Below, in pieces: positions 2,972 through 33,078 of a DNA stretch of 64,000 nucleotides (its first letter is position 1; every line of letters begins with the position of its first letter). Where the stretch lies: the IMG/VR virus record IMGVR_UViG_3300046798_000096, positions 1 to 64,000 of that record. One strand, 5' to 3'. The position numbers were made by a program, and so were the translations under genes. The notes under the pieces are model-generated. The model did no database searches. It worked only from the letters and a program-made list of their open reading frames with translations, and was not told the origin of the DNA. Origin of the DNA: a virus.

Positions 2972-3918
2972 TCGTTCTGAATATGATCGTGAAGAACGAG
3001 GCGCACTGCATCGAGCGCTGTATCAAGTCCGTGCTGCCCTACGTGGATGCTGCGGTCATCGTTGACACGGGCAGCACCGACGGTACTCAAGAGTTGCTCA
3101 GTGGCCTACTCTGGGAAAAGGAGCACGCCGTATACAACGAGGAGTGGGTGAACTTTGGTATCAATCGGACACAGGCCTTCTGGAAGGCTGTGGACATATA
3201 CCAGTGGATAGCGCCTGCTAGCTACGCCTTCATCATGGACGCCGACGAGGAGTTCCTTCCTGGGCCTGGTTTCGAGATGCCCCGAAAATTGGACTGCGCT
3301 GGCTACGCGATGTGGCAAGCCCAGGGTGGCATGCGACATCTGTACCCGAGGCTGCTTCGGCTGGATAAGCCGTGGGTGTTTCAGGGTGCAGTGCATGAAT
3401 ATGCAGAATTGCTTGACCCTGACCCGAAGCGCGGTGTGATCGACAACTGCACTGTCACTGGGCACTTCGACTCCGCACGCAACAAGGACGGCAGGTCGAA
3501 GTACCTACAGGATGCTCGTGCCATGGAGAACCTGCCGGCAACGCCGCGCAACGTGTTCTACAAAGCTAGGTGCTACGAAGGAGCGGGAGAGCACCTGATA
3601 GCGTTACAGTATTATCAGCAGCGTGCGCAGATGGACGGCTACGAAGAGGAAACATATCTAGCTCGGATCGGCATTGCTCGCATGGAACAACTCACGTTCG
3701 CACGCCCGTCCGTTGTGGCTCGTGCCTACGAAGCCGCGTACCACTTCAGGCCTTCGCGAGCCGAAGCTCCGTACTACCTAGCCACGTTCTGTAAGCAGCG
3801 TGGGCACCACGCTGCGGACTACTGGTTCATGGTAGCGGCACAGATACCAATGACAACCGATCAGCTGTTCGTCGACACTGCAGCATACAGCATCAATCAA
3901 ACAAAGACCTGTCATTAA
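2968..3918 (+). CDS. Family 2 glycosyltransferase with TPR-like C-terminus
   Basis: A 316-residue protein beginning MIVLNMIVKNEAHCIERCI, the typical GT2 start, followed by VDTGSTDGT and a DxD-type motif at Asp91-Ala-Asp93 (MDADEEF) for metal and nucleotide-sugar binding. The C-terminal half (from about residue 185) has repeated helical pairs (NVFYKARCYEGAGEHLIALQ) as in TPR domains. It starts 4 nt inside the protease gene. Such enzymes add sugars to surface or phage proteins; modification of host surface to block superinfection, or glycosylation of the virion, are possibilities. It runs 26 nt into the end of the opposing fibre gene. Confidence 0.85.
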   Translation: MIVLNMIVKNEAHCIERCIKSVLPYVDAAVIVDTGSTDGTQELLSGLLWEKEHAVYNEEWVNFGINRTQAFWKAVDIYQWIAPASYAFIMDADEEFLPGPGFEMPRKLDCAGYAMWQAQGGMRHLYPRLLRLDKPWVFQGAVHEYAELLDPDPKRGVIDNCTVTGHFDSARNKDGRSKYLQDARAMENLPATPRNVFYKARCYEGAGEHLIALQYYQQRAQMDGYEEETYLARIGIARMEQLTFARPSVVARAYEAAYHFRPSRAEAPYYLATFCKQRGHHAADYWFMVAAQIPMTTDQLFVDTAAYSINQTKTCH

Positions 3919-6900
3919 CGAAGATCCGACATCGATCCACACGCACATTCTTCGCAGCAGCGGCCCTGGTAAAGAGATTGATGCCGGGAATCACGAGACC
4001 GCTTGGACCAGTGGCAGTAGAGCTAGAGACCAGCGCATTGTTGATATAGAAGTCCCACAACGTCGTTGACTGACGTCGAATGGTCAGCTTCACCCAGGCA
4101 TTGGCTGTGGCAGTCACACCTGAGTTAGCATCCAGATTCGTAGTGGAAGCTGCTCGTACGATACAGTGCCAGGTTGTGCCCACATTGGTATCAAAGAAGA
4201 AGCACGCCGCCTCAGCACCAAACACGGAAGCAGACGTAACCACGTCAGCGCCTAAGCCACACATCACAAACTTGGATGTGACCTCTGGCAGCATGATGTA
4301 CCAGTCTATTGACAAGACGTCATCTGCAGCCAAGACACCTTCAGTACCCAGTGGAGACGAACCGTCTCTGGCTAGAAATAGAGAACAACTGTTACTTGAA
4401 GTAGATCCAGTGGCGATGTTGATTATGCCTTTATGCCCTGCCGTTCCGCCACCGATAGCTCCAATTACGCTAGTGCCGGCACTGGAGACAAAGAACCACT
4501 GACTAGTGTTTCCTGTGGCACCACTGAACACATCAACAACGTTACCAACTGTAACGTTAGTAGTTCCATATGAGGCGATGACACCCTTTGAAAAGTCTTC
4601 ATCCTCCCACATGATACCATGAGAGTTGTTGGTGGCGGGCAACGCCATCAACTGAGTAACTGTCAGCTGGTCCAATTCGCTGATGTCCCCTGCACCATCA
4701 GTAAACGTGCCTAACAGCTTACGCCCTGAAGCAGTCTGCGCGAGTTTGGTATAGGCCAGTGTATTGGTAGTAACCTGGGCGTTAACCAACTGAGCAGCAA
4801 CGATGTTGGCACCCACTCTGCCAAGAACAGTGTTGGTCCCGACAGCAACAGCAGTAGCGTTGTCTGTGGATGCCGTGGCGTTGGCCAAGACAGTGTTCGC
4901 TGCGATGGTCTGCAGGCTGGCGATCGGAACCGTATCCACAGGGAAGTCCGCAGCCTGCAGCACTGACCATTCGAGCGCCGTGTTTGCCGAGTTGTTCCTG
5001 AGATGCTGCAGAGCTACCGTTGCAGCCAGGTCCGTTGGATTGGCCGCAGCGTTCGTCGCGTTGGCCTTGACGGACTTCGCAGTCATGTCCGCGAGCAGCG
5101 CGTTGGTGATCTGATCTGCGCCGATGTTGTTCGTGACGAGTGTGCCGAAGCCCAGGTCGCCTGAGCCCGACCGACGAAGCACCTGGTCTGCAGCCGCCGT
5201 TGCGAAGAACAGGGAACCCGCAGCGCGCATGAGCATGCTCTGCGCCGCGCTAGTGATCTGCCCGATGTTGCCTGACGTCCTGGCTGGAATGGACTCAGCA
5301 GATAGAGCGACCGGCGTGTATGGACCTACGCCAGCAGTCGCGTTCGCGGCGAAGGTGTTCGCTGCCACGTTGGCGAACGTGGCTCGCAGCTCGGTCTCGC
5401 CGTTCACTGCATCGTCGGTCGGCGTGAACAGGATGTCCGTCGTGTCCAGGAAGTTCGCCGCAGCTCGCTGCGTCTGGTCGACACCATCCACGCGAATGAC
5501 GTGGCCTGGGCTGCCACCAGGAGGAACTGCGAACGAGCCATCAGCTCGCAGGAAGTTCACAGTGCCGCCAGCGCTCGCCGGCACGAGACCCTTGGCAGCG
5601 CCGAACACATCGAGCAGTGAAGTTGCCTGCGTGCCCGTCAGCTCCTCGATGTCACCTGCACCTGCAGTGATGCGACCCAAGATGCGGCTAGTGGCGGAGA
5701 CGTTCTGGATCTTGGCATACGTCCACAGGTCGTTCGCAGCCATACCAACGGTGAGACCGCCCCAGTTCAGCGTCGTAGCTGTGCGTCGAAACACGGTATC
5801 GTCTGCAGCAGACGCGATGTCCGTGGGATTCGCCGAAGCGTTGGTGGCGTTGCCTTTCACAGATAAAGCTGCAGCGTCCGCGAGCTTTGCGTTGGTCACC
5901 GCATCGGCTGCGATGGTCAGAGCCAAACCATTCTGCGTGCTCGTCACGTCGCCCGTATGGGCGCCGAGCTGGAACGTGTGAGACGTCGGATCCCAGATGA
6001 TGCTGGTGGAGTCGACGGTCAGGAATGCAACAGCCGTTGGCGTTGCAGTGCCTGCCGTAATGTTCGCAAGGAACGTGTCCGTAGCGATGGTCGCGAGCGC
6101 CGTTACGGGCACCACGTTCGCTGGGAAGTCACCCGTGGTGAACACGGACCATTCGAGGCCGGTGTTCGCAGCGTTGACCCTGATATGCTGGAATGCTGCA
6201 GAACCCGCGAGCGCTGCCGGCACTGCCGATGCGTTGGTCGCATTCGCAAGCACGCTCTTTGCTGCAAGCGCACCGAACGCCGTAGTGTTTGAATCCTGCG
6301 TCGCCGTGATGGCGCCGGTCAGTGCTCCGCGTTGAATGTCGTTGGCCCCAACGACAAGCGAACCGCCAGCTCCGACTGCAACATCAAGCGTGTGCGTACC
6401 GAAGACAAGTCCTGCGCCTGCAAGAGTACTGAGATTGACCGCAACAGGCGCAGCCGTTGAGCCAGATACGTTACCGAGGAAGGTGTCGTTCGCAATCGTC
6501 GCGAACCCAGTAAGGGGAATAGGAAACGTGGCAATCTGACGATCAGCGTTTGTGTCGTCCGTGAAGAATGGATTATTCGGTGTATCATTCTTCACCCAGA
6601 ATAGCGCTTGAGCTGCAGCCATCGAAGGTGTCGAGGCAGCAGCTTCAGTGAAACGCAGAAATCCTGTTGGTAGTATGACTACTGGAGCTTGCAGCGAGAT
6701 GCTGCCTGCAGTAGCCGTGACATTGACTCCAGTAGCACCCGTTGCATTGATGACGTCAGTTGCACTAGCGATGTCAATGACACCAGCGGAAAGCAGCGCA
6801 ATATCGTTCGTCAGCGTCGAACTTCCCATGTGAAGGAAGCCGCTGGGCGTGACGGTCATGTTGCCGCCGCACGTCATCACGATCTCGTCGAGCGCGGTAA

Positions 6901-8254
6901 CGTTGATGTCACTGTCATCGCTAGTCAGGTTCAGGCTATCAAAAGCTCGAACCGTCAGGCCACCAGCGGTGATGCGAAACAAGCTCGTGTCGAAACCAAC
7001 GAGTTGGATGTCCTCCCCAGCATTCAAATGCCAGTTCTTGTCGGCCTCGAACAGGAAGTTGTTGTTGGTGCGCGCTTGGCCTGTAGCTACACCACCAGCG
7101 AGTGTGCCCCACTGGATGAACTGTGCATCGTCAATGATGGGGTTCGAAGCGCCCGAGTGGTTGTCGATGAGGAGTGTGTCATCCCATCCTGCAGTGCCAC
7201 CCGCTCCGGAGTTGGTGATGGTGATGTCCACCTCACCATCCGTTGGGTCATCAACTACCGCGAGCGTGATGCCCGTGCCCTCTATGAGGTTCAGGCGGCG
7301 CTGCGTCGAGATGGTGGCGCCCGTGCTGTTCTTGCGAACACCGACGCCATCCCAATTAATACGGCCCGCGTTTGCTGGACGGATCGCAACGATCAGACCA
7401 GCAGAACGAGCTGCTCCGTAGGTGAACGCGCTCGGGTCCTCCGTCTGGTTCAGCGCCGTCTTGTACGCGAACCCGATGCGGCAGTTGATGCTCGCCGTCG
7501 CGCTCGCGATGGCATCCTGCCCCGTGCCGATGTAGCCGGCAGGGAACGCGGAGATGGTGGATGCCGCCTCGATGTCGAGACCAATGACCGCGAGGTAGAA
7601 GGTGTTGGTGGCCTCTGCGACCGCCCAGCTAGGCGTGACCGAGCCGATGTCCAGCGACGTGCCTGCACCGCTGTCGTTGACGGCAGAGGTGACCTCCATG
7701 TCACCGCTGGCCTTGTCGAGCAGCCAGTCGTGAACGATGGCGCCGGAAGCAGTACCAAAGGTGACGGTCTCGGTGGCTCCCTCTAAGCCAGTGATGACTC
7801 GCTTGTAGACAGCAATGATAGAAGCGCTAGTGGCTTGGCTCCCAACATGCGTCCACGCTGCGGGAGGCGTGATGGTCGTAAGACCACCGGTGGCAATGGC
7901 AACTGCTAGTACGTCCCCTGCTACCAATCCAGGTGGATAGGTATAGGTGTGGGACGTCGCAGAGACCGAGAACGCTTGCCCGCTAATCCCTTTGATCTCT
8001 GGAGCGTTGCCGCCCGCGACGCCAGACAGGTACGACAGGCCGAGGCCTGCGAACGTGGCCATGCTCCACGGAACACCGGCGCGCACGACTTCGGACAGGT
8101 TGCCGAAGAGCGTACCAGGAGGCTGCAGTGAGAAGTCATTGCCGCCGAGCCCTACGATGCGCGCAACGCGCGTACCGGCAAGGACTTCAATGCCGCCCGA
8201 GATGACGAGCTGGCCGTCAGGAACGAGCGGATGCGGTACCTCGGTGAACGGCAC
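3893..8254 (-). CDS. Giant virion fibre (possible head fibre)
   Basis: A 1453-residue protein from a GTG at 8254. The N-terminal ~300 residues hold a beta-sandwich-like module (PPGLVAGDVLAVAIATGG, then W, VYKRV). The middle is built of degenerate units of about 40 residues with the patterns IAxxTFLANxxAGTA, LKGNATNASAxPT and LEWSV, plus YAKIQNVSATSRILGRxTAGAGDIEEL, which I know from phage fibres. The C-terminal ~220 residues look like a concanavalin/LamG-type sandwich ending ARNVRVDRCRIFV-like. It probably forms a long trimer that binds the host. Unusually it lies between capsid and connector genes, so it may decorate the head. Small fragments of a second fibre module occur at 33-38 kb. Confidence 0.8.
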   Translation of the reverse strand: MPFTEVPHPLVPDGQLVISGGIEVLAGTRVARIVGLGGNDFSLQPPGTLFGNLSEVVRAGVPWSMATFAGLGLSYLSGVAGGNAPEIKGISGQAFSVSATSHTYTYPPGLVAGDVLAVAIATGGLTTITPPAAWTHVGSQATSASIIAVYKRVITGLEGATETVTFGTASGAIVHDWLLDKASGDMEVTSAVNDSGAGTSLDIGSVTPSWAVAEATNTFYLAVIGLDIEAASTISAFPAGYIGTGQDAIASATASINCRIGFAYKTALNQTEDPSAFTYGAARSAGLIVAIRPANAGRINWDGVGVRKNSTGATISTQRRLNLIEGTGITLAVVDDPTDGEVDITITNSGAGGTAGWDDTLLIDNHSGASNPIIDDAQFIQWGTLAGGVATGQARTNNNFLFEADKNWHLNAGEDIQLVGFDTSLFRITAGGLTVRAFDSLNLTSDDSDINVTALDEIVMTCGGNMTVTPSGFLHMGSSTLTNDIALLSAGVIDIASATDVINATGATGVNVTATAGSISLQAPVVILPTGFLRFTEAAASTPSMAAAQALFWVKNDTPNNPFFTDDTNADRQIATFPIPLTGFATIANDTFLGNVSGSTAAPVAVNLSTLAGAGLVFGTHTLDVAVGAGGSLVVGANDIQRGALTGAITATQDSNTTAFGALAAKSVLANATNASAVPAALAGSAAFQHIRVNAANTGLEWSVFTTGDFPANVVPVTALATIATDTFLANITAGTATPTAVAFLTVDSTSIIWDPTSHTFQLGAHTGDVTSTQNGLALTIAADAVTNAKLADAAALSVKGNATNASANPTDIASAADDTVFRRTATTLNWGGLTVGMAANDLWTYAKIQNVSATSRILGRITAGAGDIEELTGTQATSLLDVFGAAKGLVPASAGGTVNFLRADGSFAVPPGGSPGHVIRVDGVDQTQRAAANFLDTTDILFTPTDDAVNGETELRATFANVAANTFAANATAGVGPYTPVALSAESIPARTSGNIGQITSAAQSMLMRAAGSLFFATAAADQVLRRSGSGDLGFGTLVTNNIGADQITNALLADMTAKSVKANATNAAANPTDLAATVALQHLRNNSANTALEWSVLQAADFPVDTVPIASLQTIAANTVLANATASTDNATAVAVGTNTVLGRVGANIVAAQLVNAQVTTNTLAYTKLAQTASGRKLLGTFTDGAGDISELDQLTVTQLMALPATNNSHGIMWEDEDFSKGVIASYGTTNVTVGNVVDVFSGATGNTSQWFFVSSAGTSVIGAIGGGTAGHKGIINIATGSTSSNSCSLFLARDGSSPLGTEGVLAADDVLSIDWYIMLPEVTSKFVMCGLGADVVTSASVFGAEAACFFFDTNVGTTWHCIVRAASTTNLDANSGVTATANAWVKLTIRRQSTTLWDFYINNALVSSSTATGPSGLVIPGINLFTRAAAAKNVRVDRCRIFVNDRSLFD

Positions 8255-14807: not shown

Positions 14808-14845
14808 TTTCTATCTCCGAAGCCCTGTGAGCAGTAGAAAGGGCT
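14807..14845 (-). promoter_or_regulatory. terL leader hairpins covering the ribosome binding site
   Basis: On the minus strand CTTTCTA pairs with TAGAAAG (arms 14835-14841 and 14807-14813), with a shorter CTC/GAG helix inside; the Shine-Dalgarno GGAG followed by a single A is in the 3' half and the GTG start overlaps its end. A competing helix AGCCC/GGGCT (14841-14845 with 14821-14825) would break this stem and free the SD. Layout resembles the leaders at 15334, 20108 and 21841. Confidence 0.5.
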
Positions 14846-15333
14846 CATCCAAACGTCATTATGGTGTGTGCAGTGTCGATAACAGGGTAAATGGAGTGCG
14901 AATACATCAACGCTTCGACACCCTGACCCACTGCTACCTTATCACCACGAGCTTCCCACCCACTCAAGAACGCCATCGCCTCTGTATCCGCTAATCCGAT
15001 AGCATAATAGTCGACTTTTTCACTGATGAAAGTCACATAACCCTGGCAATCCACTCGAACCAGCGCCCTGGTCCGTGACAAGCCCAGGGCGATGACCCCG
15101 TCGCTCTTGTGGTCCGCCAGAATCTGCGAGACTTGGTCCACCACGTCGCTGTCGACCTTGAGATGGCGCCTCAATTTCTGACCAATGATGGCCTCTCCAG
15201 CTGTGGCCCACAGCCAGTTGTTGCAGGGCGACCTGAATATCTTGTTCACCTCAGATGGTAGCTTGTGGTCGTTGCATTGCTGACCCTGGTCAGCAATCAT
15301 CCATCCATCTCTGTGGGCTAGTACTAGTGTCAT
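14845..15333 (-). CDS. Proteasome/HslV-like Ntn hydrolase
   Basis: A 162-residue protein with the pattern of proteasome beta/HslV peptidases: Thr2 would become the N-terminal nucleophile after Met removal; DGWMIADQG places an Asp (15) where the catalytic Asp of the family lies; Lys31 in EVNKIF matches the conserved lysine before the next strand; ATAGEAIIGQ and YYAIGLADTEAMAFL match the GFAG and AIGSG segments of HslV. It sits between terS/zinc protein and terL. A self-assembling protease for procapsid maturation, or one acting on host proteins, are both possible; no HslU-like ATPase is seen in the window. Confidence 0.75.
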   Translation of the reverse strand: MTLVLAHRDGWMIADQGQQCNDHKLPSEVNKIFRSPCNNWLWATAGEAIIGQKLRRHLKVDSDVVDQVSQILADHKSDGVIALGLSRTRALVRVDCQGYVTFISEKVDYYAIGLADTEAMAFLSGWEARGDKVAVGQGVEALMYSHSIYPVIDTAHTIMTFG

Positions 15334-15557
15334 CTTCTATCTCCGATGTGAGGAGTAGAAGGCACTGCGTGTAGTGACTTGCACTCCGGACACGACTCTG
15401 GGGCGAACGCCACCACATGCCGCCGGTGCGATGATGGGTTCTTCTCGTTGGATATGACTGGGTCGTCGCACTTGAAGTGCGCGCCGCAGTGGTTGCAGAG
15501 GATGAGCAGCGAGAAGTTCGCTGCCCATGCCCTGGCGCTGGGTGAATTCTGAGCCAT
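15330..15557 (-). CDS. Small zinc-ribbon-like protein
   Basis: A 75-residue protein with two CxxC pairs (CNHCG near residue 22 and CPEC near residue 57) and several His between them, suggesting one structural zinc. The ATG at 15557 is used because it lies just past the terS stop; a TTG farther upstream would overlap terS. It ends 4 nt inside the Ntn hydrolase gene. Role unknown; packaging-operon membership suggests a DNA- or terminase-associated function. Confidence 0.6.
   Translation of the reverse strand: MAQNSPSARAWAANFSLLILCNHCGAHFKCDDPVISNEKNPSSHRRHVVAFAPESCPECKSLHAVPSTPHIGDRR
15334..15361 (-). promoter_or_regulatory. SD-sequestering hairpin of the Ntn hydrolase gene
   Basis: Minus-strand CTTCTACTCC pairs with GGAG-A-TAGAAG (arms 15352-15361 and 15334-15344) leaving one unpaired A after GGAG. 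GGAG is the only good Shine-Dalgarno and the ATG follows directly, so the stem would hide the ribosome site. Confidence 0.6.
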
Positions 15558-15564
15558 GCGCGGG

Positions 15565-16152
15565 CTATGGCTCGCGCATAGAGGGGGACAGGGAGGTGAC
15601 TTCAACTCCCGTCGCCGGGATATCAGTCGACTCCGGGAGGACTTGCGTCTCCTGGAGTCGCTTGAACTGCGCCTCCCACTCGTCCGGTGCGAGGATGGCC
15701 GGCGCGAGCATCACACCAGACCGCACCGTCAGGTCGATGTTCGTGCGTTCCTGATATTCAGGCCCGTGCGCGCGGAGCACCATCGCTCTGAGCTGCGTCT
15801 CGTACCGCTTGCGCGTGGAGCGCTCACCCGTAGGCCCGAAGATGGTCTCCTCGAAACCATTCATCGCCTGCGTCTCCAACTTACGCACACGCGCCTCGCG
15901 GTACTTGTCGTACGCTGCGTCGAACGCCTCCTGAAACTCAGGGTCGTTCTTCATGTGCTCGGATACTGTGTTGGTAGCCACTCCAGCATGCAGTGCTGCT
16001 AGAGTCCGTTTCCCATGCTTCTCTATCTGCTCCAGATAGATAGCCTTTAAACGGTCACAGAACTTTACCGTCCGCCGTTCCCTCGTCTGGTAGCGCCAAT
16101 TGGTCTTGTCCGCTACTTCGACTGCATATCCACTATTACCTTCTCGCTCCAC
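15565..16152 (-). CDS. terS: Terminase small subunit
   Basis: A 195-residue protein from a GTG at 16152 preceded by AGAGGA. Residues about 30-75 form a helix-turn-helix-like part (FCDRLKAIYLEQIEKHGKRT ... AGVATNTVSEHMKNDPEF), followed by a helical oligomerisation region and a polar tail. HTH plus adjacency to terL identifies it as the DNA-recognition subunit that selects the packaging site, likely in the non-coding DNA just upstream. Confidence 0.8.
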   Translation of the reverse strand: MEREGNSGYAVEVADKTNWRYQTRERRTVKFCDRLKAIYLEQIEKHGKRTLAALHAGVATNTVSEHMKNDPEFQEAFDAAYDKYREARVRKLETQAMNGFEETIFGPTGERSTRKRYETQLRAMVLRAHGPEYQERTNIDLTVRSGVMLAPAILAPDEWEAQFKRLQETQVLPESTDIPATGVEVTSLSPSMREP

Positions 16153-19115: not shown

Positions 19116-20105
19116 TCAGCCCTTCGCGAGTATCGTTTGGGCCACCGAAAGCGCCCGCCCTAGCAGGACACCACCCTGCCCAAACATGTTGGTTTCGAAG
19201 CGGTGGGCGTCTGTCGTATCCTTGCGGCCCCGTTCGTGCGTGGCGTGCTCCGTGATGGCATTGAAAGCGCCCCACAGGGTGCCACGCGAGAAGTGAGCGC
19301 CGCGACCAGCCTCGAACAGTTCCACGAGTCGATCCGTTCCGCGAACGACAATCTTCTCGTTGTCCGCGGCTCCCTCGTGGAGCACCTCGCGGAAGTACGC
19401 CGTTGCCTGTGCATCGTTGATCGTGTGCTTGGCCAAAGCCTGGAAGATGTCAGCTTGGACTCGCATCTGGGCACGCTGGACGTCGAACAAGTCGCGAGCG
19501 GCTTCCATGTTGATCATGCAGTTCCGGGTGTGCCGATGCTTCAACAAGTCCGAAGTCTGCAGCATGACGTCCAGCGTATTGCTGCACACCACCCGAGTCT
19601 TGCTGAATCCGAGTCGCAGTGCGAGCGAAGTATCGTGTGCGTGCGCCATGTTGACGTACTGCTGAATCACATCGCCCGGAACGATCTCCACCTCGGAGCC
19701 GACGATCTCAGCAGTGAGGCAGATGCGCTTACCGCCTCGCAGGGAGACCGAAGCACTGCGGCGAACGAGTCCAGCGTCGATCCACGGCTGGAAGAATTGC
19801 TCTAGCTCGATGTTTTGAATGTTGTGCCGTTCGGCGCCAACGATTCCGAGCACACCGTAGTCATTCTCGGAATCAGCCGTTCGGTCGTTGCGAGTGTTTG
19901 CACAGTGCGACGGGATGGCGTGGAAGCGCTCGCACCCATCAGCGTCGACACGCTTGATGTAGATCGGCTCCTTGTCGACCGACCAAGCCATATCGGAAGC
20001 CTGTACAGACTCCTCTGGGCTTGCGGGCGCTACCTCCAGCACGTTTCCCTGATGGTGCCAAGCGCCAAGACCAACGAAGTAACCAGAGTCGAATTCTGCA
20101 GGCAT
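19116..20105 (-). CDS. DUF932 (phage/plasmid-like) protein
   Basis: A 329-residue protein matching the general layout of DUF932 proteins: N-terminal GYFVGLGAWHHQGNV and PIYIKRVDADG, a middle with GSEVEIVPGDVIQQYVNMAH, LRLGFSKTRVVCSNTLDVML, and a C-terminal ALSVAQTILAKG-type helix. The ATG at 20105 is chosen because GGAG stands 9 nt upstream. Family members occur on phages and plasmids; their biochemical role is not established to my knowledge. The leader carries two mutually exclusive hairpins. Confidence 0.8.
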   Translation of the reverse strand: MPAEFDSGYFVGLGAWHHQGNVLEVAPASPEESVQASDMAWSVDKEPIYIKRVDADGCERFHAIPSHCANTRNDRTADSENDYGVLGIVGAERHNIQNIELEQFFQPWIDAGLVRRSASVSLRGGKRICLTAEIVGSEVEIVPGDVIQQYVNMAHAHDTSLALRLGFSKTRVVCSNTLDVMLQTSDLLKHRHTRNCMINMEAARDLFDVQRAQMRVQADIFQALAKHTINDAQATAYFREVLHEGAADNEKIVVRGTDRLVELFEAGRGAHFSRGTLWGAFNAITEHATHERGRKDTTDAHRFETNMFGQGGVLLGRALSVAQTILAKG

Positions 20106-20107
20106 TG

Positions 20108-20150
20108 CTTTCATCTCCAAGTGAAACGCAGGAGTGAAAGACTCCTGCGT
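20108..20150 (-). promoter_or_regulatory. Two-state leader of the DUF932 gene
   Basis: Minus-strand CTTTCA-CTCC pairs with GGAG-A-TGAAAG (arms 20131-20140 and 20108-20118; 12-nt loop; one bulged A), hiding the Shine-Dalgarno. Alternatively the same CTCC is taken up by the upstream stem ACGCAGGAGT/ACTCCTGCGT (20126-20150, 10 perfect pairs), which would leave the SD free. The two cannot form together. Confidence 0.65.
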
Positions 20151-20215
20151 GTTTCTAGTGACACCATCTCGGTGCCACACAATTACTATCCTCTGAGTCC
20201 CCTTTAAGGTCCACA

Positions 20216-20242
20216 ACTATCTACACGGCTGGTGTAGATAGT
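20216..20242. promoter_or_regulatory. 11-bp inverted repeat, operator or stem-loop
   Basis: ACTATCTACAC (20216-20226) and GTGTAGATAGT (20232-20242), 5-nt loop, upstream of the DUF932 gene. It abuts a weak promoter-like TTGTGG-N17-GAGGAT on the minus strand, so it could be an operator. Confidence 0.5.
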
Positions 20243-20251
20243 GTCGATGGT

Positions 20252-20279
20252 CTGTCTGGAGTGCCACACTTCCAGACAG
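20252..20279 (-). terminator. Stem-loop after the 20.28-kb gene
   Basis: CTGTCTGGA (20252-20260) and TCCAGACAG (20271-20279) pair perfectly, just past the stop of the upstream minus-strand gene. Position suggests termination or 3'-end protection; no T-run. Confidence 0.5.
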
Positions 20280-20283
20280 GTTA

Positions 20284-20550
20284 TTACTCTGTTTCTTCCG
20301 TGCGCTTGATCAGATACTGGCCACGGCGCACCCTGGTAGCATCATCATCCGATCGAAGGTGCCACTGCGAGCACACGGCGCACTGATACGGCCGTAGCTT
20401 TATCCCATCTTCCAGCTTGATTGCTTTCGCTCGGGATTGTGCAGCCTGCCTATCCCTGTAGCGATACTTTGCTTTGCAGATCTCAGCATGCCGGTCTATC
20501 TGCTCGCGAGCCCAGACCTTAGCTTTCGGTTGTGCCTTGCTCCTAGTCAT
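20284..20550 (-). CDS. Small basic zinc-motif protein
   Basis: An 88-residue Arg/Lys-rich protein with YQCAVCSQWHLRS near residue 55, a CxxC..WH motif common in small phage proteins. The ATG at 20550 lies 8 nt inside the upstream gene's end, and a longer start would overlap it fully. Probably nucleic-acid binding; function unknown. Confidence 0.65.
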   Translation of the reverse strand: MTRSKAQPKAKVWAREQIDRHAEICKAKYRYRDRQAAQSRAKAIKLEDGIKLRPYQCAVCSQWHLRSDDDATRVRRGQYLIKRTEETE

Positions 20551-20944
20551 AAAACACCAGCGTTTCGACTCGGCCACCATCGAAAAACAGTTGAATACCG
20601 CTGTAGGTCCAATCTGCACTAGCAGAGTAGAGAGCTGCACCGCGCACACCAGACAGCATGCAATCACCGGTGCGTGGCCAGAATTCCAGGCCACCAGTTA
20701 ACAAGCCTGTCTCCAGGCATGTTGGAGAATCGAACGAGTAGGCTCCCTGCTTCACTGTGAGACACAGCCTAGCAGCGGAGCACCATTGCCCCTCTAGCTC
20801 CGTTGCGAGCACGGGGCCAGAGTCGCACTTATTGCTTCCGTCTGGAAACGTGCACTCGGTGGCTACCACGCACGCTGGAAAGCTTAGCGCCACTAGCCAA
20901 CTCCAAAGAGCGGCTCTTTGGTGTTTCTCGACTCGGGTTAACAT
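20543..20944 (-). CDS. Exported cysteine-rich protein, possible lipoprotein
   Basis: A 133-residue protein with an N-terminal signal (basic MLTRVEKHQR, then hydrophobic LWSWLVALSF, then PAC at residues 23-25) and six further Cys in the mature part. AGGAG lies 1 nt before the ATG. It looks secreted, with disulphides or a lipid anchor. A surface or exclusion role is a guess. Confidence 0.65.
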   Translation of the reverse strand: MLTRVEKHQRAALWSWLVALSFPACVVATECTFPDGSNKCDSGPVLATELEGQWCSAARLCLTVKQGAYSFDSPTCLETGLLTGGLEFWPRTGDCMLSGVRGAALYSASADWTYSGIQLFFDGGRVETLVFYD

Positions 20945-21062
20945 CTCCTATCAATCCTTTACCGTTGCCGGTCAGTTCATAAACAACGTGCGTCCCGTCG
21001 CACACCGCAACGGGACGCACTAGGCCTAGCTCCACTAGGAGCGCTAACTCTTCCTGTGTCAC
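20829..21062 (-). CDS. Winged-helix-like small protein, start uncertain
   Basis: From a GTG at 21062 the frame reads MTQEELALLVELGLVRPVAV, then YELTGNGKGLIG, which resembles the helix-wing part of winged-helix regulators. The same frame is open upstream (LTLIRNQRKC) through a palindrome but has no start codon there. The last ~38 residues overlap the next gene in another frame. It may be a short regulator or a remnant of one. Confidence 0.4.
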   Translation of the reverse strand: MTQEELALLVELGLVRPVAVCDGTHVVYELTGNGKGLIGDVNPSRETPKSRSLELASGAKLSSVRGSHRVHVSRRKQ

Positions 21063-21065
21063 GCA

Positions 21066-21092
21066 CTTACGCTGATTCCGAATCAGCGTAAG
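21066..21092. repeat. 27-bp palindrome
   Basis: CTTACGCTGATTC and GAATCAGCGTAAG (13-bp arms, one central base) between two minus-strand genes, 3 nt before the next GTG. Terminator, operator or translation-blocking hairpin are all possible. Confidence 0.65.
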
Positions 21093-21094
21093 GT

Positions 21095-21565
21095 CTAGCG
21101 CTTTTTGAAGTTGAAGCAGTGCACTGCGCGCGAGCCACCCGGGCGAATGATTCGGACTCCAAGCTTGGAGTCCGAATCAGCGAGCTTGCGAGCCGCAATC
21201 AGCAGATCACTAGCTTTCGGCCCCTTCCAGCCGGTATCGTTCCACGTCTTGCGATCGGTGCAGGTCTCGATCTGGAAGCGCACGCATTCACCGGCAACCG
21301 GTGAATGCGCACCTCCGAAACACTTCTCCGGAATGCTGAACTGATTGCAAAGCTTGCGCTTGCTGCGTTCCAGGCCTGCTCGGCTGCGTCGTTGCTGATC
21401 GGTCGTTGCACTGATATCGCTATTCATATCGCTTGTTTCTCCCTTGAATGCATTCCAGCCGTGGCGTTGACACGCCAAAGTTCCGTATACGTTTAGTTCG
21501 TATACCCACATGTTATGTCCACATTGTGGGCATGAAGGCTTAATGTCAATCACTACATTCGTCAT
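21095..21565 (-). CDS. Unknown basic protein with N-terminal zinc-ribbon-like part
   Basis: 156 residues from an ATG at 21565 (MTNVVIDIKPSCPQCGHNMW); CPQC and a later ACQRH could bind zinc. A second in-frame ATG at 21427 has a better Shine-Dalgarno (GGGAG), so a shorter 110-residue product may also be made. The C-terminal part reads KASDLLIAARKLADSD and GGSRAVHCFNFKKR. Two near-perfect palindromes are embedded in the coding sequence. Confidence 0.6.
   Translation of the reverse strand: MTNVVIDIKPSCPQCGHNMWVYELNVYGTLACQRHGWNAFKGETSDMNSDISATTDQQRRSRAGLERSKRKLCNQFSIPEKCFGGAHSPVAGECVRFQIETCTDRKTWNDTGWKGPKASDLLIAARKLADSDSKLGVRIIRPGGSRAVHCFNFKKR
21149..21178. repeat. Perfect 30-bp palindrome inside a gene
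   Basis: GATTCGGACTCCAAG and its exact complement CTTGGAGTCCGAATC abut with no loop, inside the unknown gene at 21.1-21.6 kb. Confidence 0.85.
21283..21309. repeat. 12-bp inverted repeat inside the same gene
   Basis: CGCATTCACCGG (21283-21294) and CCGGTGAATGCG (21298-21309), 3-nt loop. Third strong palindrome within 250 bp. Confidence 0.8.
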
Positions 21566-21839
21566 GATGGGAAACGTTGCACGTACCGCTACCGGTCGCA
21601 TGATACTTGCTCCCGCAATCGTGGCATTCGTGCTCTTCTAGCGCATACTGGCGCCTACCGTGCTCGTCCAGATGGTAATCAACCATCTTTAGGTCAAGCC
21701 TGAAAACCCTGGTAGGGTAGTGCGGCTGGTTGTTGCGGTACTCGTGGCAAAGCTCGATTGCTTTCCACCCCAACGGAACGACATTAGAGCCGACCGTTTC
21801 CCATTGCTTGCCCCTCAATTGCTCGACTCGGTAAGTCAT
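21546..21839 (-). CDS. Unknown protein with C-terminal zinc-like motif
   Basis: A 97-residue protein from ATG at 21839 with GGAGACG upstream. It starts MTYRVEQLRGKQWETVGSNV, has a beta-rich middle and ends with EEHECHDCGSKYHATGSGTC, which could bind one zinc. Its leader has two alternative hairpins. Similar in style to the following gene at 21.92-22.18 kb, which also begins with a TYRIT/TYRVE strand. Confidence 0.7.
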   Translation of the reverse strand: MTYRVEQLRGKQWETVGSNVVPLGWKAIELCHEYRNNQPHYPTRVFRLDLKMVDYHLDEHGRRQYALEEHECHDCGSKYHATGSGTCNVSHHDECSD

Positions 21840-21840
21840 A

Positions 21841-21880
21841 CTTTCGTCTCCAAACGTAGTGTAGGAGCGAAAGGGCTCCC
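21841..21880 (-). promoter_or_regulatory. Two-state leader of the 21.84-kb gene
   Basis: Minus-strand CTTTCG-CTCC pairs with GGAG-A-CGAAAG (arms 21864-21873 and 21841-21851, 12-nt loop, one bulged A), hiding the Shine-Dalgarno; alternatively GCTCC (21864-21868) pairs with the upstream GGAGC (21875-21879). Same architecture and loop length as the DUF932 leader. Confidence 0.65.
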
Positions 21881-21890
21881 ATCGCTGTTA

Positions 21891-21919
21891 GTTGTGGTGT
21901 CGCTAGGACTTAGCGTCAA
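21891..21919 (-). promoter_or_regulatory. TTGACGCTAAG promoter
   Basis: TTGACG at 21914-21919, 17-nt spacer, CACAAC at 21891-21896. The TGA of the upstream gene is inside the -35 box. Confidence 0.5.
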
Positions 21920-23926: not shown

Positions 23927-23974
23927 ATCATGAGTCCCATCGGTGTTAGCGTCAACCACTAGTTTCAAACTAGT
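23927..23974 (-). promoter_or_regulatory. TTGACGCTAAC promoter with adjoining palindrome
   Basis: TTGACG at 23950-23955, 17-nt spacer, CATGAT at 23927-23932, start codon 6 nt later. A 17-bp palindrome ACTAGTTT-c-AAACTAGT (23958-23974) lies 2 nt upstream of the -35, suitable for a regulator. Confidence 0.6.
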
Positions 23975-24577: not shown

Positions 24578-24858
24578 TGCTGCACCCTCTGGAAAGTGTG
24601 AAACAGATCGATCACTGAAACAATGAGCGGTACTGCAAACACGCACAGCATTACGTATGCCAGTACCGGTGGCATGCCTGCCCCGTAGTTCTCCACATCA
24701 TCTAGATCTCTGCGCTGCATGCTCTTGCACACAGAGACGATACAGACAATCCAATCCACACACAGATAGATGATGCCAACCAGTATCGCTACGCGAACGG
24801 CCTCACCCGGCTGATTCATCCAAGCGGGAGCGATTGAATTGATCCAACGGACAAGCAT
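24574..24858 (-). CDS. Small two-span membrane protein
   Basis: 94 residues from ATG at 24858, preceded by GGGAG. Two hydrophobic spans: about residues 22-41 (AVRVAILVGIIYLCVDWIVC) and 66-83 (VLAYVMLCVFAVPLIVSV), with a charged loop (KSMQRRDLDDVE). Inner membrane. The leader is strongly structured. Function unknown. Confidence 0.7.
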   Translation of the reverse strand: MLVRWINSIAPAWMNQPGEAVRVAILVGIIYLCVDWIVCIVSVCKSMQRRDLDDVENYGAGMPPVLAYVMLCVFAVPLIVSVIDLFHTFQRVQQ

Positions 24859-24956
24859 GGTGTCTCCCAATGAAAACCGAAACACCCACAAGCTTTCTAC
24901 CCACGCATTGCTGCGTTTCAGGGGCGCGCCCTAGTCGGCTTGTGGGGTGTTTCGGG
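24859..24956 (-). promoter_or_regulatory. Structured leader with competing hairpins
   Basis: A long stem pairs 24877-24893 (CCGAAACACCCACAAGC on the plus strand) with 24938-24956, enclosing a GGGCGCGCCC palindrome. A short alternative stem, GGTGT (24859-24863) with ACACC (24882-24886), would place the SD GGGAG in its loop. The ACACC is shared, so forming the long stem frees the SD. Confidence 0.55.
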
Positions 24957-31100: not shown

Positions 31101-31937
31101 ATGCGATATTTGATTCTGGCGGTTCTGTTTGCGTTGGGCTGCTCCGGCGAGTACGACGACGAAGGCGCGATGGGTGAGGACGACATCGGCCAGGCCGAGC
31201 AGGCTCTCGGTATCCAAGGCAACGGCGCTGCGGGTTGGACGATGGGTGTCATCAGAAACAAGTCTCCCGCGCTGTCGTCCTGCACTCTAGCCCAGGCGAC
31301 GAGCGCAGAGTGCATCCTCCCGCGCAACCGCGTCATGAACTACTGCATTGCTATGCTACCGGCCTTCGGTGGATTCACCAATGCGACCGAGGTCGGTGAA
31401 GTGCGCGCGGCGCTGGCGCCGAACGTGGCGGCCATCAACGCGCAAGTAAACGCATTCGGTGACCCGTCCACCAACTGGGTGCTGACGGTCTCGCCGAGCG
31501 GGGCTACTTGCCCACCCGTGGACATTACACATACGACGATCGTCAAGTTCTCTGTGCCTGGCTCTGGCAGCAACAATCTGTCGGACTACCTGTCTGTAAG
31601 CCTGTCCCCGCTGTTGCAAGCGCCGTTGACGGAGAACCCGGCGGGATACAACGGGAGCGCGTACGTCAACCAAGGCTCGTCCTTCACCATTGACCTTGCC
31701 GACGTGCACGCCAAGAACTCGCCCTTCTTGCTTCAGCAAGCGTGCGCAAAGGGAGCGCTAGCGGTCATCGGCGTTGGGGCTACCGGAGCCAACACCGGCT
31801 TTGCAACTGCCGCCACGATCCAGACGGGCGGATTCGCGGAGATGACTGCTGGCCAGGCATGCCGGCTCGACAAATACACGACGATTGGCTCGACTACGCT
31901 GGACTGGTCCTCGTCCAGCACCTGCGCGAACAACTAA
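31101..31937 (+). CDS. Secreted lipoprotein of unknown fold
   Basis: 278 residues with SD AAGGGAA. Signal MRYLILAVLFALGCSGEYDD: lipobox ALGC with Cys14, then an acidic stretch ending DIGQAEQALG, a motif I associate with exported proteins of Myxococcota. The mature part is Ala/Ser/Thr-rich, beta-like, with paired Cys. It stands before a metzincin lipoprotein with a matching DIGQ motif, so both may be processed or sorted alike and act together on the cell surface. Confidence 0.7.
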   Translation: MRYLILAVLFALGCSGEYDDEGAMGEDDIGQAEQALGIQGNGAAGWTMGVIRNKSPALSSCTLAQATSAECILPRNRVMNYCIAMLPAFGGFTNATEVGEVRAALAPNVAAINAQVNAFGDPSTNWVLTVSPSGATCPPVDITHTTIVKFSVPGSGSNNLSDYLSVSLSPLLQAPLTENPAGYNGSAYVNQGSSFTIDLADVHAKNSPFLLQQACAKGALAVIGVGATGANTGFATAATIQTGGFAEMTAGQACRLDKYTTIGSTTLDWSSSSTCANN

Positions 31938-32076
31938 CGACTCGGCCCTTCGGGGCCCCCGCATGCGCGCCGCTGAAAACTCGACCGGGTCGACGTCTGC
32001 AGACGTTCCGGGGAAGGTACCGCAAGGGGCGGCGCGCAGTCGGAGGCCAAGCAGGCACTCAGAAAGTGAATCATCG

Positions 32077-33078
32077 ATGAAACTGAACATGCTATTTATT
32101 GCAGCGCTGCTGGTTGGGTGCGGCGCTGCATACGAGGCGGATCCGGACGACTCCGGCGGCTGGACGTATATCGACGGCACAGCGGAGAGCTACGAGAACG
32201 CTCCAAACATTCCGGCGTTCCAAGACCCTGACTGGGTAGAGGGGGACATCGGTCAGACGACGCAAGCGTGGTCGAGTAAAAAGTTCCACGGGGACGCGGC
32301 AGGGCTCACTTGCTACGGACCGGCCAGCGCCGGAAAAGTGTGCATATTCCCCCCGTTCAAGCAGGCCAACGTCACGACTCCAAACTGGAGCGCAGACACT
32401 GCGTCAAGCAATTGCGCGACCCAGCGGGCGAACCTGCTGGCGTTCGGTGGCACACAGGCCGAATTCGATCTCACCAAAGACGCATACGTCGCAGGCATGG
32501 CGACCCTGAACGGCATCGGGACAGGTGTCGTGGTGCATGTCAACAACGCCTCCGGAACGAACATGACTCTGCCAATCCGGTGCGCCAACTTGTTCCCAGC
32601 TCTTGGCGTTTTTGCTGAGGCAAGCGTGGCCAATCAGGTGCACGTCCAGTTACCTGCATTCCAAGGTATCGATCCTCTGTATGCCCGCCAGTATGTAGTG
32701 TCCGGCGCGGGCACAAGCGCGCACCAGATCGATATCGTGTCTATCTGGGATTTCGTCACTAGGCCGACCGGTGGGAGCAATCCCGGCTGCGGCCTACCGC
32801 CAGGCAATAACCGAAACCTGAAACTGGCCGAGGTAGCGACATACGTCGGCAAGCACGAAGGTTTGCACATGCTCGGCTTTGGGCACTTCGCTGAGGGCAT
32901 CATGTCCGTCGTCGAGTGCAATGTCGGCACACACGGGCCCACGGGTAAAAAGGTCCTCGATTCCGTGGTTCCGCCCGGATTCGGGGAAGCCCTGAGCAAT
33001 TACAACGGCAGCGCGTCCGGCGGGGTATCCATCACCGTGAACAGCTCAGACCCGCTCGATAGCTGGGGCCCTTTCTAG
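32077..33078 (+). CDS. Metzincin-like metalloprotease lipoprotein
   Basis: 333 residues from ATG at 32077. Lipobox LLVGC with Cys15, acidic segment and GDIGQTTQAWS. The zinc site HEGLHMLGFGH (residues 260-270) is a full HExxHxxGxxH, and GIM five residues later is a good Met-turn. The central domain carries four Cys. It would be a membrane-anchored extracellular protease. Phage-borne proteases of this type may remodel the surface, aid release, or be a cargo benefiting a lysogen; the sequence does not decide. Confidence 0.78.
   Translation: MKLNMLFIAALLVGCGAAYEADPDDSGGWTYIDGTAESYENAPNIPAFQDPDWVEGDIGQTTQAWSSKKFHGDAAGLTCYGPASAGKVCIFPPFKQANVTTPNWSADTASSNCATQRANLLAFGGTQAEFDLTKDAYVAGMATLNGIGTGVVVHVNNASGTNMTLPIRCANLFPALGVFAEASVANQVHVQLPAFQGIDPLYARQYVVSGAGTSAHQIDIVSIWDFVTRPTGGSNPGCGLPPGNNRNLKLAEVATYVGKHEGLHMLGFGHFAEGIMSVVECNVGTHGPTGKKVLDSVVPPGFGEALSNYNGSASGGVSITVNSSDPLDSWGPF

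Follow-up and report, generated by a model that had tools for sequence, protein, structure and literature searches.

The stretch of DNA analysed here (the window, 64,000 nucleotides) belongs to a 69,302-base IMG/VR virus record. Its terminase is about 52% identical to those of Mesyanzhinovviridae-like phages and RcSimone-Hastad, and the minus strand carries most of its genes. Three of these genes are preceded, on the same strand, by a hairpin that holds a GGAG Shine-Dalgarno (SD) sequence in its stem (Table 1). A search of 50,697 phage records returned no near match to the hairpin region. Elsewhere in the window, the plus strand encodes two cargo-like lipoproteins (31101-31937 and 31885-33078), one of them with an HExxH-type HEGLHMLGFGH motif; in style they presumably resemble Myxococcota proteins, a possible hint at the host. 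A promoter-like sequence, TTGACGCTA, recurs at 23955, 22595, 22233, 21919, 17860, and 17107 on the minus strand and at 2376 on the plus strand, and is followed 17 nt on by CATGRT-like hexamers. Two of these sites, 23955 and 22595, have an ATG 6 nt past the -10-like hexamer; leaderless mRNAs are therefore predicted there.

Table 1. Positions of the three hairpins, their genes and neighbouring features in the window.
Feature	Position	Strand	Remarks
Gene after copy 1	19116..20105	-	DUF932 protein (PF06067, phrog_1221), 329 aa
Copy 1 SD-sequestering hairpin	20108..20140	-	6-bp outer stem and CUCC/GGAG core with bulged A; 2-bp inner stem inside the 12-nt loop
Copy 1 Shine-Dalgarno GGAG	20115..20118	-	within 3' arm, 9 nt 5' of ATG
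Copy 1 rival hairpin	20126..20150	-	ACGCAGGAGU-CUUUC-ACUCCUGCGU; would free the SD
Gene after copy 2	21546..21839	-	97-aa protein without family, Cys/His-rich C terminus
Copy 2 SD-sequestering hairpin	21841..21873	-	
Copy 2 Shine-Dalgarno GGAG	21848..21851	-	8 nt 5' of ATG
Copy 2 weak rival arm	21875..21881	-	UGGGAGC pairing with GCUCCUA, 7 bp; equalled by 2-7% of random controls
Promoter-like TTGACG-N17-CACAAC upstream of copy 2	21891..21919	-	consensus match only
Gene after copy 3	14845..15333	-	162-aa protein just upstream of terminase, no family match itself
Copy 3 hairpin	15334..15361	-	abuts ATG
Copy 3 Shine-Dalgarno GGAG	15341..15344	-	7 nt 5' of ATG
ORF upstream of copy 3	15330..15605	-	reads through the hairpin and stops on an ATGA overlap; possible translational coupling

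A sequence-only reading of the window had described two of these hairpins, within 20108-20150 and 21841-21880. Both are confirmed, but on the minus strand, and its description of stem, loop length, bulge and covariation between the two proved correct. Copy 1 is CUUUCA-CUCC-ugcguuucacuu-GGAG-a-UGAAAG-CA-AUG and copy 2 is CUUUCG-CUCC-uacacuacguuu-GGAG-a-CGAAAG-U-AUG. The third hairpin, absent from that reading, is CUUCUA-CUCC-ucacauc-GGAG-a-UAGAAG-AUG. Two further copies were found in related loci, here called L010 and L096: CGGCUA-CUCC-ggcgcuacgcuu-GGAG-c-UAGCCG-AUG at 9084-9116 of L010, and CGGUCA-CUCC-gucgcuucgcuu-GGAG-a-UGACCG-AUG at 7042..7010 (minus strand) of L096. The set thus comprises five sequences, four with a 12-nt loop, from three genomes, two of which are fragments. 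All five follow a common plan, in which an outer stem of 6 bp is joined to a CUCC/GGAG core with a single unpaired base 3' of GGAG. The loop is 12 nt long in four copies and 7 nt in copy 3. The GGAG lies within the stem in every copy. Each hairpin stands in front of a different gene, with 0-2 nt between its end and the ATG.

The five genes that carry the hairpin are those of the DUF932 protein, the 97-aa protein, an HslV-like protein, a long structural-region protein (MPFTS, in L010) and the head closure protein Hc1 (in L096). The third assignment comes from L010, where the gene at 1222-1818 occupies the same place before the terminase as the copy 3 gene and matches phrog_1040 (peptidase HslV family). 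The MPFTS gene is the orthologue of the window gene 8254..3893. The hairpin turns over between relatives: it is absent from the L010 counterpart of the copy 3 gene and, in the window, from the orthologues of the genes that carry it in L010 and L096. Since orthologues in sister phages often lack it, the hairpin is not essential to the genes themselves. The upstream surroundings also differ. Three of the five hairpins sit where an upstream cistron terminates, namely copy 3, L010 (stop codon 4 nt before the hairpin) and L096 (2 nt before), and the window orthologue of Hc1 overlaps its upstream gene via TAATG. Copies 1 and 2 have no cistron close upstream; the leaders before them are noncoding and measure 178 and 76 nt.

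Further copies were sought by structure, by loop sequence and by homology. A structural scan for a CUCC/GGAG core with one 3' bulge, an outer Watson-Crick stem and a start codon in range found three sites in the window, each before an ATG on the coding strand; 60 dinucleotide shuffles gave 0.00 matches per 64 kb to the same design (at least 5 outer Watson-Crick pairs plus a start codon). Relatives were gathered by terminase alignment, which yielded 80 IMG/VR loci, L010 (73% terminase identity) being the nearest and the sole close one. The L010 copy was found by a blind structural scan of all loci, in which loop sequence was not used. L096 was picked by a scan of IMG/VR for the loop consensus followed by ATG, which returned 17 stretches; besides L010 it alone among them has a complete outer stem and bulge, and it proved to be related, with shared synteny, to the window and L010. 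Its outer stem, paired at 6 of 6 positions with the right bulge, is independent of the selection on the loop. When a single fixed criterion is applied throughout, 93 kb of this clade contains the strict design 5 times, against 0 in 1.72 Mb of other loci. The hairpins recur before unrelated genes, as the sequence-only reading proposed, and are specific to the clade.

Outside the clade the searches added nothing to the set. A looser loop-motif scan (67 stretches) gave no addition with six outer Watson-Crick pairs, and about 70 other matches to the loop motif have at most 5. Two of the candidates, L099 and L104, combine the loop motif with a 6-bp stem, a 5'-side bulge and one G-U pair; they were excluded, being within chance for about 70 candidates. 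Across 257 Gb of genome sequence from bacteria and archaea the loop motif had 5 matches, none with the stem. Patterns spelling out copies 1 and 2 letter for letter had no match in IMG/VR, and no Rfam 15 family matched the hairpin at gathering score. As baits for relatives, protein P0001 and the DNA polymerase gave nothing usable, and the capsid alignment gave L010 only. Two start-abutting stems of another kind were seen on the way. In L003, at about 3376-3407 (record 67376-67407, plus strand), a stem GGAGCCUCC...GGAGGCUCC without a bulge is followed by ATG; it lies on the strand opposite to most genes and may be a coding coincidence. In the window, at 24857-24884 (minus strand), a hairpin GGUGUUUC-12 nt-GAGACACC-AUG precedes a small ORF at 24856; it has no bulge and no covariance-model match.

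The pairing is kept while the letters change. The outer stems CUUUCA, CUUUCG, CUUCUA, CGGCUA, and CGGUCA are each complementary to their own 3' arm, the arms being GGAGATGAAAG, GGAGACGAAAG, GGAGATAGAAG, GGAGCTAGCCG, and GGAGATGACCG. The four copies with a 12-nt loop were aligned (alignment A5) on the structure ((((((((((...((...))..)))).)))))). In this alignment 48 of 48 cells pair, and 7 of the 12 pairs vary, all on both sides and none broken; the outer stem has changed at five of its six pairs among these four copies from three genomes. None of 500 shuffles reached this level of covariation, shifted registers lowered pairing to 30-48%, and RNAalifold returned the same outer fold. Covariation thus establishes the fold, and the pairing is retained in homologous leaders (L010 and L096), where its loss would have counted against the sequence-only reading. 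The covariance model proposed there as a check was also built: the model (R1), not trained on copy 3, finds that copy at E 2.5e-4, and its next matches on both strands of the three genomes begin at 0.28. R1 gave no convincing copy in 85 other loci (best E 3.6) or in 36 more distant full records. One match at E 1e-3 in a distant record, antisense inside a helicase gene in 79% GC sequence, was judged to be chance.

Conservation extends into the loop. A 2-bp inner stem within the 12-nt loop covaries (pairs 14-20 and 15-19; G-C/A-U and C-G/U-A), and bases C13, U16, C18, U21, and U22 are common to copies 1, 2 and L010, which were selected blind to loop sequence. Identity at 5 or more of 12 positions in three unrelated sequences has a probability of about 5e-4 by hand (binomial, p=1/16). 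The loop bases of L096 agree by the manner of its discovery, and the 7-nt loop of copy 3 lacks the conserved apical part. Kept loop bases together with a covarying inner stem are as would be expected of a recognised site. A conserved apical loop and bulge, a variable but paired stem and several targets, the features by which a protein-bound operator was judged, all occur here, with copy 3 departing in its loop.

Short ORFs in a common frame run across the hairpins (20108-20167 and 21841-21882 on the minus strand; 9072-9113 in L010), with products M..LSLLRFTWR*, MGALSLLHYVWRR.., and MLEVRLLRRYAWS*. A leader peptide was considered and rejected: one frame crosses copy 1, copy 2 and L010 (LSLLRFTWR*, LSLLHYVWRR, RLLRRYAWS*), L096 has no start codon in frame, and the likeness in amino acids arises because it is dictated by the RNA motif.

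The sequence-only reading had further proposed a two-state switch, in which an upstream GGAG(C/U) arm competes with the SD for the CUCC and the choice responds to a ligand, a protein or temperature. The arm is strong in copy 1, where ACGCAGGAGU/ACUCCUGCGU forms a perfect 10-bp duplex of -17.4 kcal/mol matched by 0-1 per 1000 random controls, and marginal in copy 2 (7 bp); third bases x/x'/y covary between these two copies, U/A/U against C/G/C. The other copies do not support it. The rival arm of copy 3 is not beyond chance (7-9% of controls as good), its upstream GGAG falling in CPEC coding triplets, and L010 and L096 have no rival arm (59-79% of controls as good). Ensemble folding places the SD hairpin at 66-99% in copies 2, 3, L010, and L096, and at about 0-14% in copy 1 once at least 25 upstream bases are included. 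With the rival hairpin predicted to dominate, the SD of copy 1 may mostly be free already. Moreover, the copy 1 arm is one of 25 perfect hairpins of at least 10 bp in the window, against 0-2 in shuffles. As the arm is strong in copy 1 only and absent from L010 and L096, the switch appears to be an add-on and not part of the conserved element; in these predicted folds, the SD-freeing arm is an extra in copy 1 and perhaps in copy 2. The switch as proposed is therefore improbable.

The 25 perfect inverted repeats span 10-16 bp with short loops, and several lie inside ORFs; six fall between 20126 and 21309 (for example 21148-21179, 21066-21092, 21283-21309, and 20988-21020). The 178-nt leader of the DUF932 gene (20106-20283, minus strand) is itself strongly structured (z -4.6; 200 shuffles gave nothing equally stable) and contains strong dyads, one at 20216-20242 and one at 20252-20279.

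The main rival to a recognised operator is a gate that works in cis by translational coupling, in which the hairpin would prevent independent initiation until a ribosome completing the upstream cistron opened the 5' arm and exposed the SD; no trans-acting factor is needed. The stop codons just before the L010 and L096 hairpins, the ORF that passes through copy 3 and the TAATG junction of the window Hc1 orthologue all speak for it. However, copies 1 and 2 lie behind noncoding leaders, so that coupling cannot act there in the proposed way, and a coupling gate would need neither conserved loop bases nor a covarying inner stem. We regard it as an unlikely explanation, though a serious one. A temporal gate of the T4 gene e type, in which long early transcripts fold and are silent and shorter ones begun at a promoter within the 5' arm or immediately before it lack the arm and are translated, is known from phages and buries the SD in the same geometry (PMC3014915). 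By consensus reading, no late promoter of that class was seen in or at the 5' arms, which differ completely and have no common sequence, and no promoter-like motif is shared by arms or loops; the recurrent TTGACGCTA upstream of copy 2 would transcribe the whole of that copy. This gate is quite improbable here. An RNA thermometer or a small-ligand riboswitch, acting without protein, would likewise place the SD within a short bulged stem, as thermometers do. The predicted stabilities of the hairpins alone vary widely, from about -10 to -20 kcal/mol, which does not look like a tuned melting point; an element of 33 nt leaves little room for a ligand pocket, and the lack of an Rfam match also stands against this reading. 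The kept loop bases speak for an RNA that is recognised rather than for a plain thermometer, and we consider this pair of explanations very unlikely. Least probable of all is that the hairpins arose by chance or are inverted repeats at the DNA level, such as an operator or palindromic repeats. The wealth of perfect hairpins in the window gives this some ground, but the fixed bulge, the compensatory changes in both arms, the placement of SD and ATG, the agreement with gene strand and the enrichment in the clade argue against it, and a DNA operator would conserve letters rather than pairing.

We favour, with evenly balanced confidence, the reading that the hairpin is a translational operator which recurs, sequesters the SD and is probably recognised by a factor acting in trans. 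Because one hairpin, re-paired each time, hides the ribosome-binding site of five genes, it is probably a shared translation gate. The 33-nt hairpin at the start codon would lock GGAG in its stem and exclude the 30S subunit until the stem opens; for four copies, folded with 40 downstream bases as flank, opening the SD is predicted to cost about 3.5-9 kcal/mol. The modelled burial of an SD 7-9 nt from the AUG fits a translational off-gate, and from the established biology of SD sequestration we infer that the hairpin represses translation. The stem letters can vary freely provided that pairing holds, and the parts kept are the CUCC/GGAG core, the 3' bulge and an apical loop of the form nnC, 2 bp, UWC, 2 bp, UU. 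This would be expected if several unrelated genes shared one factor acting in trans, for which an RNA-binding protein encoded by the phage is the likeliest candidate. Such a factor is favoured by the conserved apical bases, the inner stem, the fixed bulge, the five unrelated genes and the turnover among relatives, and the unrelated genes and flanks fit convergent selection for a shared site. Against the operator stand the small sample (4-5 sequences from three genomes), the copy 3 loop without the apical part, the predicted dominance of the rival hairpin in copy 1 and the sister orthologues that often lack the hairpin.

Burial of the SD in phage hairpins has long been known. Inhibitory leader hairpins at the translation start occur in T4 genes e, soc, 49, and I-TevI and in Aeh1 mobE, and the T4 e hairpin lowers synthesis about 100-fold (PMC3014915). 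The present hairpins resemble this class in burying the SD of a phage gene at its start site, and the SD hairpin is dominant in four of the five copies, although not in copy 1 in context. The T4 structures are presented as belonging to single genes (PMC3014915), whereas here unrelated genes are preceded by one and the same kind of bulged hairpin, its loop conserved, and no internal promoter is seen in the hairpins. The SAS/ESAS elements of Cluster K mycobacteriophages are short GGAG-containing repeats that lie a few bases ahead of the start in many phage genes unrelated to one another (PMC3203893; PMC12699233). They share with the present hairpins this placement and the turnover among relatives. 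However, the SAS repeat is a linear 13-mer of fixed sequence, GGGATAGGAGCCC, and ESAS repeats have little support for RNA pairing, their authors favouring DNA-binding proteins for the inverted repeats (PMC3203893; PMC12699233), whereas here stem letters change while pairing is kept. No GGGATAGGAGCCC-like 13-mer occurs 3-8 bp before the start in the hairpin 3' arms. A covarying hairpin with a kept loop, common to unrelated genes, is in neither the T4-class nor the SAS/ESAS descriptions.

Among RNA sites bound by proteins is the MS2 coat operator, which has a bulged A. The T4 gp43 operator hairpin and gp32 pseudoknot are likewise protein-bound phage translational operators (PMC3014915). The present hairpins are like them compact structures at the ribosome-binding site with a conserved loop or bulge; the best-known of these operators are autoregulatory single sites, and their loop and bulge sequences differ from those found here. 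The iron-responsive element regulon, with a variable stem, a conserved loop and bulge, several unrelated genes and control of initiation, offers an analogy only, being eukaryotic and cap-dependent and without homology.

The literature compared here treats SD-burying phage leader hairpins gene by gene. With five sequences, a 33-nt consensus and a covariance model in hand, the present family is directly testable with reporters. Tentatively, we see in this dsDNA phage clade a post-transcriptional regulon, in which one phage RNA-binding protein would read a bulged hairpin with a UWC-capped apical loop and time several unrelated early and structural genes jointly at their start codons. A hairpin family that moves from gene to gene while keeping its pairing and loop would act as a portable and compact gate on translation, and it would mark a putative RNA-binding regulator in an uncultured phage lineage.
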